DNA of 64,000 bases, from NCBI RefSeq assembly GCF_006874425.1, contig NZ_VIJZ01000004.1:248001-312000 (forward strand). Reading direction: 5' to 3'. Positions 40,944 to 52,336 of this stretch are shown here, piece after piece. Below the pieces are notes generated by a model, which saw only the letters and a list, made by a program, of their open reading frames with translations, had not been told where the DNA came from and did no database searches. The translations under genes were made by a program, and so were the position numbers. Numbering within the stretch: the first letter of the stretch is position 1; each line of letters begins with the position of its first letter. The stretch comes from Paenibacillus ottowii. GTDB taxonomy: Bacteria > Bacillota > Bacilli > Paenibacillales > Paenibacillaceae.

Positions 40944-43900
40944 TTACCTCTGTGTTGCTTTTGCAGATACCGAAGATGAGGCCGGGAAGTAACCGATCTC
41001 GACGGCATGCTGGATCATATTGCGAATAAACTCCAGGTTGGTTACCGGACACTGAACGCCAGCTTGTTCCAGCAGAGCTTTGGTTACAGAGCAGCCGTAA
41101 CGGTAAGCCGAATCCTTGGCACCATCACCTTCGAGTTGTCCCATCGCAAGGTGGAGTGCATCTTCCTGAATGCCGGAAGACGGATTCAGCAGCCAAGCGC
41201 TGTAATCGTCAAAAGGCAGGGTTTCTACTGCGTAACCGAGCTGGTTTACCATAGCGATCAGTTCATCATATGGCAGTGGGTTCGGATTACAGATGTGGAA
41301 AATGCGGTTCGCACTTTTTTGCTTGACGGACAGTTCTACGATAGCACGGCTAGCGTAATCAATCGGTGTGAAGTCCGTATGCCAATCGGCTTGTGGAGCT
41401 TTGCCCAGCAGCAGCATTGCCTTCATCATACGATAATAAGCATTGCTGTCGATATTACGCTGGAAGCGTCCGTTGGCCGAATGGGCTGTCAAATTGCCCG
41501 CACGGTAGATCGAGACAGGCGTACCTGCTTGAGCTGCCTGGAACAATAGCTTCTCCGCTGCGAGTTTACTGTTCGTGTACAGATTGTCCACGTTCAGTTC
41601 ATCTGGGAAGGCAGAGAGTTCCAATGTCGATTCCCATTTTCCTTCGTTTGCAAGATCCTCCGGTATTCCCATAGTGGAAACATGGTGGAAGGAGACTCCT
41701 GGCTTGGCTTGAGCGATTTTTAGCAGTTCCAATGTTCCGGTCACATTCGTGCGATCGAAGGTTGCCGAATCACCAAAATGGCGAACGTCAGCAGCGCTGT
41801 GAATGATACCATCGATATGTTGCTCCAGCATATGGCGATCGACAGAGGAGAGACCCAGATCTGCTTGTTCCAGATCTCCATAGACAGCCTTCACACGTCC
41901 TTCCATCAAGCTGGAGATATTTTGACCAAAATATCCTGTCAATACGGATTGAATACGCTCTAAGCCAGACGGACCGCTCTGAGAAGGACGGACCATGGCG
42001 TATACTTTGGCTTTTGTCCGGTGGAGCAGGTCATACAGAATGTGTGAACCCAGATATCCTGTGGCTCCGGTCAACAAAATTACGCGCAAGTCGCGGATTT
42101 CAGCTAAATCTGAAGCACCAGGCAGCTCAATAGGATGTTCATTCAAATCCGTTTTTTCCTTAGAAAACGCGAGTGACTTGCGCTGCGGTGCTTGTTCTGT
42201 TCCTAATTGCTCTACATATTCAGCAAGCTCACGAACGGTCTTGTAACGGAAGAAGTCTCCAATACGCAGCGCGCCATAACGCGGCTTCAGAATAGCTAGT
42301 ACATGAATGACACGAAGCGAATCGCCTCCGATCAGGAAGAAATCATCGGTGGCGCCAATGTTATGTTTACCAAGCACTTGTGTCCATGCTTCGGCAATGA
42401 GTGTTTCAGTTCCTTCGCGGAGAGGTTCCCCGCCGGACGTAAGATCAGACACTTCAGGAAGTGGCCGCAGGGCCAACTTTTTACGATCAATCTTGCCTGT
42501 TGGTGAAATAGGCATGGCTTCCAGATGGATGACATGGGTCGGTACAAAGTAGGAAGGCAGCTTGCCTCCAATATAAGACTGAATAACGTCCTGTGGAATG
42601 GACTGTCCATCCGAAGTGGTGAAATAGCCAACTAGCATGTTCTGATCTGTGTGATCTTTAACGGCGACAACTGCTACGTCTTGAACACCTGGATGTTTGG
42701 AGAAATGATCTTCAATTTCCCCTATTTCAATCCGGTTCCCCCGAATTTTGAGCTGCGAATCCTTCCGGCTTACGTATTCAATCGTACCGTCTGGCAGCAG
42801 CTTGGCAATATCACCTGAACGGTACATTTTCTCACCTGGGACAAAAGGATTGTCCACGAATGATTGGGCTGTACGCTCCGGCTGATGGAGATAGCCATGG
42901 GCTAACGCAGGCGTGGCAATGCATACCTCGCCCGGAATATTGACAGGGCAGAGCTTATTATCGTCGTTAACGATATACACTTTATAATTGTAAATCGGCT
43001 TGCCGATCGGGATATTAACGACATGTTCAGGTACGGCACCACGGACTCGATGGGTCGTTGTAGCTACGGTGCATTCAGTTGGTCCGTATACGTTTACGAT
43101 GTCTGTATCTGTACCAAATTTGCTTTGGAACGCTCGAACTTGTGAGCCATACAGCGCTTCGCCTGCCACAGTCACAATTCGAACATTTGCGAGTTTGCGA
43201 TAACCTTCGTCTGACAAGTACGTAGATAGCTGATTAAAAAATACGGTTGGCAAAATAGTGATAATCGTCGTGCCTGTACGTTCGATGGCTTCGGCGAATT
43301 CTTCGACAGATACGCGCTCTTCGGAAGACAGCAGGTACAATTTTGCGCCATAAAACAAGGCTCCAATCGTATCCCACACCGAGGCATCGAAGCTATAGGT
43401 GGCGAATTGGGTCAATACATCCTGAGGTGTAATGTCACAATCGCGTTGCACGACAGCTCCTAAGTTAACAACACCGCGGTGAGCGATCAGGGCACCTTTT
43501 GGTTTGCCTGTAGAACCGGACGTATAGATAACATAAGCTAGATCATCCGGACTTACATCAACGTTTGGATTGCTGGCTGCATAACCCGCCAGTGGCCCAT
43601 CAATAGCTAATATTTCTTTTACGGTTTCAATGGAACCGCATAGTTCAGCCGCTTGTTGGGTGAGTGCGGAAGTTGTTAAGACAAAAGGAGAACGCGTGTC
43701 CTCGACAATGTAGCTGCTCCGATCAGCGGGGTGAGCGGGATCAACAGGAACGTACACGCCTCCGGCTTTCAGGATGCCGAGCAGCGAAATAACGGTCTCC
43801 AAGCTTCGTTCCATAAAGATGGTCACGAATTCACCTTTGGCAAGACCTTTGGATAACAAAACACGTGCGACTTGGTTAGCGCGCTCGTTCAGTTCACGGT

Positions 43901-44639
43901 ACGTGTATTCCCCAGTATGGGATGCAATAGCTGGACGATCAGGATATTGGGAAGCCGCTTCTTCAAACATTCCGTGAATCGTCTGATGCTCAGGATATTT
44001 TACCACTGTATTATTTAAAGCTTCGTGAGCAGCACGATCCGCGTCCGATAATATGTCAATGGAATTCACAAGTGCATGGCTGTTGTTTAGCGCACCACGC
44101 AGAAGGGTTACAAAGTATTCTGTGTATCGAACAACCGTTGTTTCCAGCAAGAGTGATTGATCATACCGAATCTGGATTTGATAAGTGCCATTGTTCTCAT
44201 TGACAGCCCAGTCCATAATACGGGATTCTACACCATTGTTTGAAGGTAGTGTTGATGAAAATGAAGTATCAGCTTGTGGTTCTGCCAGGAACGCATTAGA
44301 CTCACGCAGCATCCCCTGAAATAAGCTTGCCAGATCATGAAAAGTGGTTTCTTTTTCAACTGTCAGCGATGCTGTAAGCAGACCTGATCGAGGCACAAAA
44401 GTAGAGAAAGAAACTTCTTCCTCCGCAGATAGACGATATAACCATGCAGTATATGCTGATAAGAGCACCGCTTGTCTGTTCTCCGCAGATGCTTGCTGAT
44501 TCAATTGTTCCGAGATGGACGCTTCTAAATCTACCTGATAAGTAGAGAATGTATGCTTGCGCTGTATGCGTGCAAAATCCAAGGGAACTAGGAATGGGGA
44601 TGGAGCTGTCTGTGTGCTGTTTTGTAGTAATGATGCCAT
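40944..44639 (-). CDS. Stand-alone NRPS module ending in a thioester reductase
   Basis: A 1231-residue enzyme that should activate one amino (or aryl) acid, load it on its own carrier domain and release it reductively as aldehyde or alcohol using NAD(P)H. Domains: truncated condensation-like segment without the HHxxxDG motif (residues 1-200); adenylation (about 225-720) with YTSGSTGKPKG (372-382) and K716 in SPTGKIDRKKL; carrier with GGDS, phosphopantetheine serine 774; reductase with GATGYLG (858-864) and YTNSK (1021-1025). The eight-residue pocket code reads D418 A419 W422 T461 T490 A492 V517 V525 A526; the DAWT beginning recalls aromatic-specific domains, the rest does not. AGGAGG stands nine bases before the ATG, so the truncated N-terminus is the real one. 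It follows a chemoreceptor gene; no phosphopantetheinyl transferase is in the window. Confidence 0.93.
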   Translation of the reverse strand: MASLLQNSTQTAPSPFLVPLDFARIQRKHTFSTYQVDLEASISEQLNQQASAENRQAVLLSAYTAWLYRLSAEEEVSFSTFVPRSGLLTASLTVEKETTFHDLASLFQGMLRESNAFLAEPQADTSFSSTLPSNNGVESRIMDWAVNENNGTYQIQIRYDQSLLLETTVVRYTEYFVTLLRGALNNSHALVNSIDILSDADRAAHEALNNTVVKYPEHQTIHGMFEEAASQYPDRPAIASHTGEYTYRELNERANQVARVLLSKGLAKGEFVTIFMERSLETVISLLGILKAGGVYVPVDPAHPADRSSYIVEDTRSPFVLTTSALTQQAAELCGSIETVKEILAIDGPLAGYAASNPNVDVSPDDLAYVIYTSGSTGKPKGALIAHRGVVNLGAVVQRDCDITPQDVLTQFATYSFDASVWDTIGALFYGAKLYLLSSEERVSVEEFAEAIERTGTTIITILPTVFFNQLSTYLSDEGYRKLANVRIVTVAGEALYGSQVRAFQSKFGTDTDIVNVYGPTECTVATTTHRVRGAVPEHVVNIPIGKPIYNYKVYIVNDDNKLCPVNIPGEVCIATPALAHGYLHQPERTAQSFVDNPFVPGEKMYRSGDIAKLLPDGTIEYVSRKDSQLKIRGNRIEIGEIEDHFSKHPGVQDVAVVAVKDHTDQNMLVGYFTTSDGQSIPQDVIQSYIGGKLPSYFVPTHVIHLEAMPISPTGKIDRKKLALRPLPEVSDLTSGGEPLREGTETLIAEAWTQVLGKHNIGATDDFFLIGGDSLRVIHVLAILKPRYGALRIGDFFRYKTVRELAEYVEQLGTEQAPQRKSLAFSKEKTDLNEHPIELPGASDLAEIRDLRVILLTGATGYLGSHILYDLLHRTKAKVYAMVRPSQSGPSGLERIQSVLTGYFGQNISSLMEGRVKAVYGDLEQADLGLSSVDRHMLEQHIDGIIHSAADVRHFGDSATFDRTNVTGTLELLKIAQAKPGVSFHHVSTMGIPEDLANEGKWESTLELSAFPDELNVDNLYTNSKLAAEKLLFQAAQAGTPVSIYRAGNLTAHSANGRFQRNIDSNAYYRMMKAMLLLGKAPQADWHTDFTPIDYASRAIVELSVKQKSANRIFHICNPNPLPYDELIAMVNQLGYAVETLPFDDYSAWLLNPSSGIQEDALHLAMGQLEGDGAKDSAYRYGCSVTKALLEQAGVQCPVTNLEFIRNMIQHAVEIGYFPASSSVSAKATQR

Positions 44640-49323: not shown

Positions 49324-49355
49324 GGGTTGCATATCTGATTAAATCAGCTTTGAGA

Positions 49356-49387
49356 TAAAATACCGACTTTTCGGTATTTTATTTTTT
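49356..49387 (+). terminator. Terminator after MhqR-like gene
   Basis: AAAATACCGA pairs with TCGGTATTTT around a 4-base loop, then ATTTTTTT. Confidence 0.9.
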
Positions 49388-49505: not shown

Positions 49506-50564
49506 ATGAGTATACAGCAATACACCGCAGGTGAGTCGCTATTGATGCAAGCCGGAAATTTGGCTGAATTAGTTACCCATAAACAATACGAATTACAGCC
49601 GGATCTTTTGGAGCGCTTTGGGGACAACGGTAAAATAAAAACAAAACAGGACTCTATATATAGTTTAAACTATTTAGCTGAAAGTTTAATTATGAACAGT
49701 CCTATTTTATTTACGTATTATGTTGCCTGGTTAAAGAGACTTCTAGAAGGGTTCGGCATAACCCAAGAAGATTTAATCATCAATTTTCAATTAATTCGGG
49801 AGACAGTGGTAGAGCACTTCCATCACTCGGATAAAACGACAGTGCTGATGCATCTGGAATTGGGGATACAGCAAATTGGGAAGAGAGAGGAGTATGCCTC
49901 TTTTATTACAGATAATAATCCCTATGCTGCCGATGTGACTCAGTATTTGGAATATTTACTCTCAGGTAATCGCAGGCAAGCTTTGGATGGAATCGTCCGA
50001 TTGCTTGATGAAGGTACATCTATTCAACATACTTACAAATATATTTTTCAAATCTCGCAATACGAAATAGGACGCTTGTGGCATGAAGGCAAAATCACGG
50101 TTGGTCAGGAACATTTTTGTACTGCCGCGACTCAGTTTATTATTTCCAGCTTGTATCCCAGATGGATAGGTACTGGAAATAAGGGGCGCAGTCTCGTAGC
50201 AGCGTGTGTAGGCAGCGAGCAGCACGAAATAGGTCTGCGTATGCTAGCTGATATATTCGAGATGGATGGATGGGATACGTACTATTTAGGGGCTAATGTA
50301 CCTGACCGGAGTCTGCTTCAAGCTATTGTGAGTTACAAAGCAGAAGTGGTGGCTATCTCAGCCACCATGGCTTACCATGTCCATCTGGTGAAAAAGTTGA
50401 TTGCTGTTATTCGTAAAGATACAGCTACTAGGCATGTGAAAATTATGGTCGGTGGTCTGCCTTTTAATCTCGATCCACACTTATGGCAGGAAGTGGGAGC
50501 GGACGGATACGCACCGGGTGCAGAGGAAGCACTGGAGGTAGCAGAGGACCTACTTTTCACTTAA
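49506..50564 (+). CDS. Cobalamin-binding sensor with CarH-type photoreceptor signature
   Basis: A 352-residue soluble protein. Residues 1-165 are helical and not a MerR or other DNA-binding domain. Residues about 150-220 form the four-helix cap, with W192 and E202-H203 spaced as W-x9-EH, the signature of AdoCbl photoreceptors such as CarH and LitR. Residues about 228-352 form the B12-binding Rossmann domain with ExHxxG (E238, H240, G243; H240 is the lower cobalt ligand) and later VVAISATMAYH and MVGGLPF. AAGGAG precedes the ATG by about eight bases. The next gene, 56 bases on, is a hybrid histidine kinase lacking a sensor. Light or cobalamin sensing feeding that kinase is inferred. A corrinoid methyltransferase role is less likely because no methyltransferase gene is near. 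Confidence 0.88.
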   Translation: MSIQQYTAGESLLMQAGNLAELVTHKQYELQPDLLERFGDNGKIKTKQDSIYSLNYLAESLIMNSPILFTYYVAWLKRLLEGFGITQEDLIINFQLIRETVVEHFHHSDKTTVLMHLELGIQQIGKREEYASFITDNNPYAADVTQYLEYLLSGNRRQALDGIVRLLDEGTSIQHTYKYIFQISQYEIGRLWHEGKITVGQEHFCTAATQFIISSLYPRWIGTGNKGRSLVAACVGSEQHEIGLRMLADIFEMDGWDTYYLGANVPDRSLLQAIVSYKAEVVAISATMAYHVHLVKKLIAVIRKDTATRHVKIMVGGLPFNLDPHLWQEVGADGYAPGAEEALEVAEDLLFT

Positions 50565-50620
50565 GAGATAATGTTAGTGTTGGCAACCCGTAAGTCATTT
50601 TGTAAAGGGGGCCTTTTAAT

Positions 50621-52336
50621 ATGAAGGAACCGGCAGCAGAAATGGCTGTCCTGCGGAGAACGGTCGAACAATTAACGGACGAGGTTGTGAAAAGCAAAGC
50701 CGAGGAAGAAAAGCTGCTGAATGAATTTTCAGCGATGAACAACGAGCTGGTCAATCTGCAGCGTCAGCTTGCCAAAAGCAATGCGGAATTAAAGCGGACA
50801 AAGGAAGAAGCGATACGGGCTAATGATCTGAAGAGTACTTTTCTCGCCGTGGTTAGTCATGAATTCAGAACACCAATGAACGGAATCCTGGGGATGATCG
50901 AAATGTTAGGTTCATCCAAACTGTCTCCAGAGCAACGGCAGGCCATCAATGTAGTACGTGAGTCTGCTTCTCTGCTGTTAAACATGATTAATAATCTGCT
51001 CGATATATCCAAAGTAGAAGCAGGACAGATGGAACTAGAGATCGGAAATGTCAGAGTCCAGGCGATTATGAGCCATGTTGCTCAGCTGTTGGAGCCGCAA
51101 ATCTACCAGATGGGCAATCGTTTGAGTATAGAGATTGATCCTGGCGTGGCAGAGCATCTTGAAGGAGATTCGGCAAGGATTATGCAGATCTTGCTTAATT
51201 TCTTGAACAATGCCAATAAGTTTACGAGCGAAGGGATACTTGTTGTTCGAACAAAATTGGTTGAGGAAACAACAGATTCCCAACGTGTTCGTTTTGAAGT
51301 ACAAGATTCGGGCATTGGGATTTCACCGGAGGATCAGGACAAGCTGTTTCAGCCTTACGTGCAAGCCGGTGAAGGCAGCGCTTCCCAATATGGAGGAACG
51401 GGTCTGGGGCTGTGGATATGCAGTTCATTTGTGAAACTTATGCAGGGAGAGATTGGGGTCGTCAGCGAAGAAGGCCAAGGCTCCACGTTCTGGTTTGAAA
51501 TTCCCTTCAGGAAGGCTTCAGGACAGGCAGATGAAATAGAGGAACATGAAAATGGTGAATTGACGGCACATAGCGAGTTGCTTCGTGAGCATAGTCATTC
51601 TCAAGCGATCTTGGTGGCTGAGGATAATCGGGTGAATCGTCAAGTGGTGCAATCACAGCTCAACCATCTTGGGTTCCAACGTATTGACTTTGTGGAGGAT
51701 GGACAAGCCGCAGTTAGAGCGGCTGCCGAACGATCCTACGCCTGTATTCTAATGGATCATCACATGCCTCTGCTAAACGGTCACGATGCGGCGAAGACAA
51801 TTCGTCAGTGGGAAGCAGAAAATCAGCAGCCGCCTGTGCCGATCATTTCGTTGACCGGAAATGGGTTTGGGGAAGACCAGACCCGTGGGCGGGAAGCTGG
51901 AGTGAACGATTACTTGATAAAGCCAGTGACGATTGAAAATCTCGCAGAAAAGCTGGTCAAATGGCTCCCCACGCCGGAGTCCGAGCCTATTTTGAATGAG
52001 GATGTTATTCGTGAAATTATGCTGCTGGACGAGGATGGCAGCACGGGATTACTAGAGTCATTAGTCGAAATGTATACCAGTGATACACCTGCCAAAATCA
52101 ACAAGTTAATAGAACTGGTTGCTGCGGGCGAAACTACAAAAGTAGTAGAGGCTGCTCATGAGCTGAAATCAGGCAGCGTGAGTCTGGGGGTCGGATGTTT
52201 GTCCAAGTTGCTGTCTGATATTGAACAGCTTGCACGGGAGAACCGACTCGGGAATGCACATGTGAAGTTGTCTGTGCTCCAGTCCGTCTATCAGGCAACG
52301 TGTGTAGAACTAGAACGTTATATTCACCAGTGCTAG
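50621..52336 (+). CDS. Soluble hybrid histidine kinase (HisKA-HATPase-REC-Hpt)
   Basis: A 571-residue phosphorelay kinase with no membrane helix and no PAS, GAF or other sensor. Order: coiled coil 1-70; HisKA with H80 in VSHEFRTPMNGILGMIEM; HATPase with N-box near 193-200, DSGIGIS (229-235) and GGTGLGL (258-264); receiver about 328-447 with acceptor D379 in ILMDHHMP and K434; Hpt with H513 in AAHELKSGSVSLG. Input must come in trans, most simply from the cobalamin-binding protein upstream. GGGGG is nine bases before the ATG. No separate response regulator is encoded nearby, so the output target is unknown. Confidence 0.93.
   Translation: MKEPAAEMAVLRRTVEQLTDEVVKSKAEEEKLLNEFSAMNNELVNLQRQLAKSNAELKRTKEEAIRANDLKSTFLAVVSHEFRTPMNGILGMIEMLGSSKLSPEQRQAINVVRESASLLLNMINNLLDISKVEAGQMELEIGNVRVQAIMSHVAQLLEPQIYQMGNRLSIEIDPGVAEHLEGDSARIMQILLNFLNNANKFTSEGILVVRTKLVEETTDSQRVRFEVQDSGIGISPEDQDKLFQPYVQAGEGSASQYGGTGLGLWICSSFVKLMQGEIGVVSEEGQGSTFWFEIPFRKASGQADEIEEHENGELTAHSELLREHSHSQAILVAEDNRVNRQVVQSQLNHLGFQRIDFVEDGQAAVRAAAERSYACILMDHHMPLLNGHDAAKTIRQWEAENQQPPVPIISLTGNGFGEDQTRGREAGVNDYLIKPVTIENLAEKLVKWLPTPESEPILNEDVIREIMLLDEDGSTGLLESLVEMYTSDTPAKINKLIELVAAGETTKVVEAAHELKSGSVSLGVGCLSKLLSDIEQLARENRLGNAHVKLSVLQSVYQATCVELERYIHQC

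Follow-up and report, generated by a model that had tools for sequence, protein, structure and literature searches.

What controls a hybrid histidine kinase that has no sensor of its own? The question is raised by two genes of Paenibacillus ottowii, located in a 64,000-nucleotide stretch of contig NZ_VIJZ01000004.1 (positions 248,001 to 312,000, forward strand; the whole stretch is here denoted the window). A gene encoding a cobalamin (B12)-binding protein is followed, 56 bp downstream on the same strand, by the kinase gene. An earlier note on this DNA had described the pair, and its motif positions and spacing proved correct. We found that the B12 protein (denoted the sensor) joins a bilin-type globin fold to a conserved B12 pocket, that sensor-partner gene pairs turn up again in distant phyla, and that the partners share a coil specific to them. 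We consider it likely that the pair is a two-gene light-to-phosphorelay switch, in which photoconversion of adenosylcobalamin (AdoCbl), with a bilin as optional second chromophore, acts on the kinase in trans via the coil. Taken singly, light is quite probably the stimulus of the sensor, and the coupling of sensor to kinase deserves the same trust.

Domain composition of the sensor

Scanning the sensor against Pfam detected B12-binding_2 at residues 146-215 (E 1e-11) and B12-binding at residues 229-343 (E 2e-25). A motif check found both W192-x9-E202-H203 and E238-x-H240-x-x-G243, H240 being at the position of the lower axial ligand. W192, E202, H203, H240 and G243 are invariant in 106 of 106 distinct relatives; in this and the following counts identical proteins were counted once, loci L167 and L186 were grouped with Paenibacillaceae, conservation counts exclude sequences shorter than 320 amino acids, and coil and upstream counts exclude frames below 280 model positions. 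The closest PDB sequences found by phmmer were the photocobilins SasPcob (8j2x/8j2w, E 3e-24) and AbPcob (8j2y, 5e-16); a MerR-type B12 protein (8jbs) gave 4e-14 and CarH (5c8a) 2e-4. The whole sensor was predicted with AlphaFold from 38 sequences (pLDDT 93.5; all models are of the protein alone, ligand-free), and VIA put the photocobilins on top for the B12 half, modelled residues 138-352 matching SasPcob at Z 26.0 (208 residues, 1.9 A) and AbPcob at 25.9. The exact motifs and nearest sequences thus agree with the light-sensor type of B12 domain that had been proposed, and the Pfam scan, which gave no helix-turn-helix match, agrees with the proposed lack of a DNA-binding domain. We are confident that the sensor contains a CarH-type AdoCbl module, with photocobilin-type anatomy and AdoCbl binding.

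The whole-protein fold search covered residues 137-352 only, and the N-terminal domain was therefore modelled separately. By its model, this domain is a phycobiliprotein-type globin of known fold. VIA gave Z 16.8 to the SasPcob globin (8j2x 223-346; 122 residues, 3.3 A), 16.7 to 8j2w (120 residues, 2.5 A), 16.8 to far-red allophycocyanin 9i1r and 16.6 to smURFP 7uqa, values above the caution level of about 13-14 for helical folds. The top Foldseek match was an allophycocyanin (E 5e-4), and among the 50 matches listed the titles named phycobiliproteins, photocobilins or engineered bilin-type fluorescent proteins. A MetOD1 Pfam match to the domain (E 0.02, below cut-off) was superseded by this fold match. 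The earlier note had taken the N-terminal 165 residues for a helical kinase-coupling domain; residues ~8-125 are a bilin-type globin instead, and the coil at the N terminus of the kinase is the more likely coupling element.

In the phmmer search, sensor residues 46-109 aligned weakly, by themselves non-significantly, with the C-terminal biliverdin-binding globin of three photocobilin chains, and a swapped domain order was therefore suspected. Asp270 and Trp296 contact biliverdin in SasPcob, and Asp270 is His in AbPcob (PMC10979010; this paper, PMC11796333 and PMC10151467 are cited from excerpts, except for the word counts given below). With the offset to SasPcob numbering fixed by W61 and H108, these residues align with D49 and W75. 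W75 falls inside the alignment to SasPcob; D49 stands four residues ahead of its start, by gapless extension, and within the AbPcob alignment, where the AbPcob His lies opposite it in agreement with the published Asp270-to-His difference. D49, Y72 and W75 are invariant in all 106 distinct relatives. Position 46 corresponds to the Cys of the photoglobin CxQD motif (PMC10151467), and Cys is found there in 12 of 21 relatives outside Paenibacillaceae. SasPcob binds biliverdin even without a Cys (PMC10979010). We lean moderately towards bilin binding by the P. ottowii sensor.

With its bilin-type globin, the sensor is to be grouped with the photocobilins and not with CarH/LitR. Like SasPcob and AbDPcob, it has a CarH-type AdoCbl domain with W-x9-EH and E/DxH and a biliverdin-type globin with the Asp and Trp positions (PMC10979010), and like SasPcob it is a stand-alone protein. 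Unlike them, it has the globin N-terminal and the B12 module C-terminal, lacks the G of GxxH and has a coil-bearing kinase next door; the excerpts of PMC10979010 mention photocobilin groups defined by AdoCbl domain location. With CarH/LitR it shares the AdoCbl module and the photolysis pocket; it lacks the MerR DNA-binding domain, has the additional globin and is more distant in sequence (2e-4 versus 3e-24), and is thus a reverse-order photocobilin relative, not a CarH variant. CarH identity was rejected also on the NCBIfam CarH model (43.7 of 400 bits). Photoglobins and BBAG-2 globins, as described in the excerpts of PMC10151467, resemble it in the globin-B12 pairing and in the Cys of the 12 outside members; here, globin and B12 are fused, the coil-bearing kinase is separate, and Paenibacillaceae lack the Cys. 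VIA also matched the sensor model to the SCHIC domains of AerR and AppA (Z 21.5 and 20.4). These are B12-fold regulators without a DNA-binding domain that act in trans on transcription factors; to our knowledge they have no globin domain of the bilin type.

Stand-alone globins also turned up: two lone photoglobin-like proteins of 126 and 118 amino acids (L071 5630-6366, L072 5612-6324), each in a frame without a B12 domain and with a relative of ABM-type monooxygenases directly 5', are possible bilin-only relatives, and a third stand-alone globin has 137 amino acids (L070).

The partner gene and its coil

The kinase of P. ottowii has the HisKA, HATPase_c, receiver and Hpt domains of a hybrid histidine kinase, together with the phospho-acceptor residues. 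The Pfam scan gave no sensor family above cut-off, and no transmembrane segment was apparent by eye (no predictor was used), as expected from its description as a sensorless HisKA-HATPase-REC-Hpt protein. Both genes of the pair gave dN/dS values of 0.08-0.12 (six comparisons each; the six relatives include L039, whose sensor is broken by a stop), and the neighbours MarR, MFS and RpiA gave 0.00-0.05, indicating that sensor and kinase are constrained, yet evolve faster than these neighbours.

Co-occurrence, which the earlier note had suggested as a check, was examined in 119 whole genomes of one order, P. ottowii's own plus relatives. A sensor locus is present in 64 (10 degraded) and an orthologous kinase (E <= 1e-100) in 65; 63 have both and 53 neither. 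The list of sensor-locus genomes and the ten degraded sensors come from manual reading, and with 11 kinase candidates scored per genome, of 40-189 in the genomes listed, a weak orthologue could escape. The sole genome with sensor but no kinase (G054) carries a sensor remnant, and in the two with the kinase alone (G005 and G058; L238, L239) it lies 3' of a MarR gene. The flanking genes of the pair vary in other Paenibacillales.

Beyond the order, 80 loci were kept of 365 relatives, and by record titles 21 of the 80 lie outside Paenibacillaceae, in hosts including Thiomargarita, Acidobacteriota, Anaerolineae, Cyclobacteriaceae, Poribacteria, Syntrophobacteraceae and Methanohalophilus. Sensor matches were found in 19 of 296 genomes of the phylum of the Cyclobacteriaceae genome (E <= 1e-50; 13 of the 19 span globin residues) and, at E <= 1e-70, in 7 of 247 for the Desulfoferrobacter genome's phylum, 4 of 251 for that of the Anaerolineae genome and 6 of 247 for that of the Acidobacteriota genome; one match in each of the last two samples covers the B12 part only, and every sample contains the genome that defined it. 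This recurrence of the pairing in distant bacteria suggests that the kinase is probably what the sensor controls.

Outside Paenibacillaceae the partner gene usually starts -4 to ~130 bp 3' of the sensor gene on the same strand, with -4 bp overlaps in several loci. Most of these partners consist of an N-terminal domain of ~110 amino acids, a coil and an output. The N-terminal domain looks PAS-like by eye only; it matched no Pfam family in the five proteins tested (L177, L172, L064, L176, L170) and is missing in L180, L228, L229, L231, L234 and L235. The output is mostly a histidine kinase, with a kinase plus receiver in L171 and none recognised in L177. Partners with GGDEF in place of the kinase were seen at L176 9056-10093 and L185 9020-10765. 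In two mini-partners of 123 and 124 amino acids (L231 5061-5432, L234 5050-5424), a Cys-containing motif, LLPICASCK, comes after the coil, and inspection by eye revealed no enzyme domain.

An alignment of 18 partners (kinases, GGDEF proteins and one without recognised output) demonstrated that the coil, ~33 residues long (NNELVNLQRQLAK), is the sole site of invariant columns, five in number: N40, N41, L43, R48 and L50 in P. ottowii kinase numbering. In loci outside Paenibacillaceae it takes the form LxELSRLNNELVNxQRELAKKNxxLExLN. A coil profile matched 0-700 bp downstream, on the same strand, of 126 of the 130 distinct full-length sensors; the figure is 41 of 45 for distinct loci outside Paenibacillaceae, and 27 of 31 once the 14 profile-training loci are subtracted. 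The four exceptions have the coil 831 bp downstream (L165), in the gene immediately upstream (L224) or not at all (L220, L230). Second coil matches reaching 20 bits were limited to one in 2.45 Mb of loci (overlapping records counted). Across the 119 genomes the profile (E <= 0.001) gave 64 matches, 63 in orthologous kinases and one adjoining a second sensor of G100; 62 adjoin a sensor locus, and the other two are the orphaned orthologues of G005 and G058. No match was obtained in 56 genomes, including G044, G045 and G054, which have broken loci; this genome-wide specificity covers the one order. That partners with unrelated outputs share this coil, found nowhere else in the order, is best explained by a role as docking or signal-transfer site for the sensor.

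A fused version, which the earlier note had suggested looking for, was not found among the 130 distinct full-length proteins, and no frame contained both sensor and coil. The two longest frames, at L163 (635 codons) and L157 (479 codons), were judged by eye to be upstream read-through. In G045, sensor codons 172-238 have been brought into one open frame with kinase codons 286-570 by a natural deletion (L068 5001-6044); the product is probably a remnant. We also noticed that a record titled Neobacillus mesonae MER 107 (L123) has the Paenibacillus gene order at the locus; the deposited name looks wrong.

Light sensing weighed against other explanations

We propose that the CarH-type module would hold AdoCbl, with H240 beneath it and the W192/E202/H203 pocket over it, and that a linear tetrapyrrole may be housed in the adjacent globin. 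Light, acting directly or after its capture by the bilin, would break the Co-C bond, and a rearrangement of the helical cap and the dimer would follow. Through contact between the two proteins, the rearrangement would reach the N-terminal NNELVxxQRxLAK coil of the kinase, a separate protein, where it would reset the coiled coil running into HisKA and so alter autophosphorylation of H80, upward or downward; the phosphoryl group would pass from H80 to D379, H513 and a further, presumed response regulator. In vitro, a diguanylate cyclase is affected in trans by free photocobilins; the effect depends on light and goes with an altered oligomeric state of the cyclase, and its sign depends on biliverdin (PMC10979010). 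Action in trans with the coil as receiver would account both for the retention of a sensorless kinase next to the sensor and for the sharing of one coil by different outputs. The NosP-NahK and H-NOX-kinase pairs work alike, a separate soluble sensor (for heme/NO) controlling a soluble kinase in trans; we know of no relation between those sensors and that of P. ottowii.

Several observations weigh against a light-driven switch. Foldseek placed the MerR-type B12 protein 8jbs (E 3e-11) ahead of the photocobilins (2e-9), and in VIA a methylamine corrinoid protein (Z 22.9) and MetH (22.3) both scored above CarH (20.1); the B12 fold alone is therefore no proof of a photoreceptor. The light-responsive B12 signature consists of GxxW, EH, GxxH and GxxxP (PMC11796333); in the P. 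ottowii sensor the third is SEQH (S237) and the other three are present, and 18 of the 106 distinct relatives have all four motifs. At the CxQD Cys position P. ottowii has Thr, and Cys occurs in 0 of 85 Paenibacillaceae. A PF01126 heme oxygenase match is absent from the P. ottowii genome and from 12 of 54 intact-sensor genomes in all, being present in 42. Some hosts are, judging by record titles, probably anaerobes or from habitats of doubtful light exposure. Finally, the kinase is full length in nine relatives whose sensor is broken, shortened or lost (G002, G004, G017, G026, G061, G065, G103, G005, G058; the single stop in G103 may be a sequencing error), so that the kinase may work alone, for a use of its own or in a default state.

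The strongest alternative, which we nevertheless hold unlikely, is a sensor that responds not to light but to AdoCbl, bilin/heme turnover or oxygen, the state of the kinase being set by ligand loading and not by photolysis. The relatives from doubtfully lit habitats and the missing strict GxxH fit it, as do the genes upstream of the sensor. Outside Paenibacillaceae, 20 of the 45 distinct loci have an ABM-family gene 6-230 bp upstream of the sensor (two of these genes are fragmentary, and one is on the opposite strand), and two more loci have a heme oxygenase-like gene. This gives 22 of 45 loci with a gene suited to a bilin or heme-turnover sensor; the remaining 23 have neither within 300 bp. 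Among the 85 Paenibacillaceae loci, 4 show a more distant ABM relative in this upstream interval. Three upstream ABM proteins were confirmed by Pfam, and that of L179 has as nearest PDB sequence 1iuj (hypothetical protein TT1380, uncharacterised), followed by HmoB, IsdI and mycobacterial heme monooxygenases. These proteins keep the Trp and His of the Asn-Trp-His triad that we take to belong to the ABM/heme monooxygenase family, with Ser at the Asn place wherever the column is present; on these residues, heme cleavage is plausible. Against a ligand sensor, the W, E and H of the adenosyl pocket and the His ligand are invariant and serve photolysis in CarH and photocobilins (PMC10979010), and two putative chromophore sites lie side by side. 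For such a juxtaposition we know of no role except optical coupling.

Regarding chromophore supply, P. ottowii encodes a PF01923 cobalamin adenosyltransferase and an IsdG-family protein (L242) scoring 156.9 bits to heme-degrading monooxygenase 8avh. The other two B12-binding matches in its genome are, by eye, a radical-SAM protein and, going by its 1156-codon frame, perhaps MetH. PF01126 is present in 11 genomes of the order without an intact sensor and in 2 of 20 genomes outside Paenibacillaceae (that of L165 excluded); since it does not strictly track the sensor, heme oxygenase as an obligate partner was ruled out. One Paenibacillus locus (L160) has a heme oxygenase-like gene ~3.9 kb upstream of the sensor, scoring 64 bits to that of L175.

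Far less probable is mere co-location, with another input (redox, ATP, a membrane protein) binding the kinase coil. The nine full-length kinases without an intact sensor speak for such independence; the pairing across phyla in differing flanks, the -4 bp overlaps and the confinement of the coil to partners and their orthologues (64 of 64 matches) speak against it. That the sensor gene encodes the corrinoid protein of a methyltransferase system can be practically dismissed: the fold ranks above and weak NCBIfam similarity to MtgC and MtbC (57.3 and 55.7 bits) hint at it, but the cut-offs (370 and 350) are far off, the nearest sequences are photocobilins, W-x9-EH is invariant, the bilin-type globin is extra, and no methyltransferase gene, the link that would have spoken against the original proposal, was noticed by eye in the neighbourhoods inspected (no dedicated search was made).

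The locus in the window and the wider family

Coordinates of the pair and its features are collected in the table below. A hairpin resembling a terminator separates the pair from the MarR gene upstream, and the pair may therefore form a separate transcription unit; four terminator-like sites were found in the region against 2.7 expected by shuffling. A promoter scan of the region was uninformative (5 sites found, 5.0 expected). Elsewhere in the window, a large open reading frame of 1231 aa on the minus strand (40944-44639) resembles, by eye, a nonribosomal peptide synthetase-type adenylation-carrier-reductase protein.

Table. Features of the sensor-kinase pair of P. ottowii (window positions).
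Feature	Position	Strand	Basis or remark
Terminator-like hairpin between upstream MarR gene and pair	49352..49385	+	15-pair stem plus T run
Photocobilin-type sensor gene	49506..50564	+	ATG 49506, stop ends 50564; 352 aa; globin first, B12 module second
Five-helix bilin-binding-type globin, residues 8-125	49527..49880	+	AlphaFold pLDDT 93.8; VIA/Foldseek matches
D49, aligned with SasPcob Asp270 (biliverdin ligand)	49650..49652	+	Sequence alignment
W75, aligned with SasPcob Trp296 (biliverdin D-ring contact)	49728..49730	+	Sequence alignment
B12 helical cap, residues 141-215	49926..50150	+	Pfam PF02607; holds G189-x-x-W192 and E202-H203
B12-binding Rossmann domain, residues 224-352	50175..50561	+	Pfam PF02310; E238-x-H240 and G262-x3-P266
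Sensorless hybrid histidine kinase gene	50621..52336	+	571 aa
Conserved partner coil, kinase residues 28-60, EEEKLLNEFSAMNNELVNLQRQLAKSNAELKRT	50702..50800	+	Helical by look; invariant columns of 18-partner alignment
HisKA, kinase residues 71-135	50831..51025	+	Pfam; phospho-acceptor H80 by motif
HATPase_c, kinase residues 182-297	51164..51511	+	Pfam
Receiver domain (Response_reg), kinase residues 330-445	51608..51955	+	Pfam; phospho-acceptor D379 by motif
Hpt domain, kinase residues 481-555	52061..52285	+	Pfam; H513 by motif

On balance, the data favour a broader reading, held with some reserve, in which the pair belongs to a widespread plug-in light cassette of a heme monooxygenase that would make the bilin, a stand-alone globin-B12 photocobilin and a coil-tagged output that evolution has swapped. 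The cassette genes would stand together in Acidobacteriota, Bacteroidota, Desulfobacterota and Gammaproteobacteria; it would be represented by sensor plus coil-tagged output in Chloroflexota, Poribacteria and an archaeon, where no upstream monooxygenase was found. Paenibacillaceae would have a pared-down form, and the Paenibacillus version would have lost the extra N-terminal domain of the kinase and the bilin Cys and gained REC-Hpt. As histidine kinase, hybrid kinase, GGDEF and mini-proteins are exchanged behind the same coil, one photoreceptor may control many enzymes through a shared address tag.

In the literature searched, some of it in excerpt and with the photoglobin survey of Schneider et al. 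2022 excepted, we did not find the sensor-kinase pair described. The term 'histidine kinase' is never mentioned in PMC10979010, PMC11796333 or PMC10151467, nor 'B12', 'cobalamin' or 'CarH' in PMC6798134. Of stand-alone photocobilins, the excerpts of PMC10979010 say that their function 'is less clear'. The locus and its relatives supply a natural partner and a candidate contact element for these proteins, and two proteins and one coil would now suffice to test their function directly. If the proposed switch is correct, phosphorelays of many non-phototrophic bacteria, and of at least one archaeal genome, would have B12/bilin light sensing upstream of them, and optogenetics would gain a green/red-responsive kinase switch that acts in trans and carries a short address tag.

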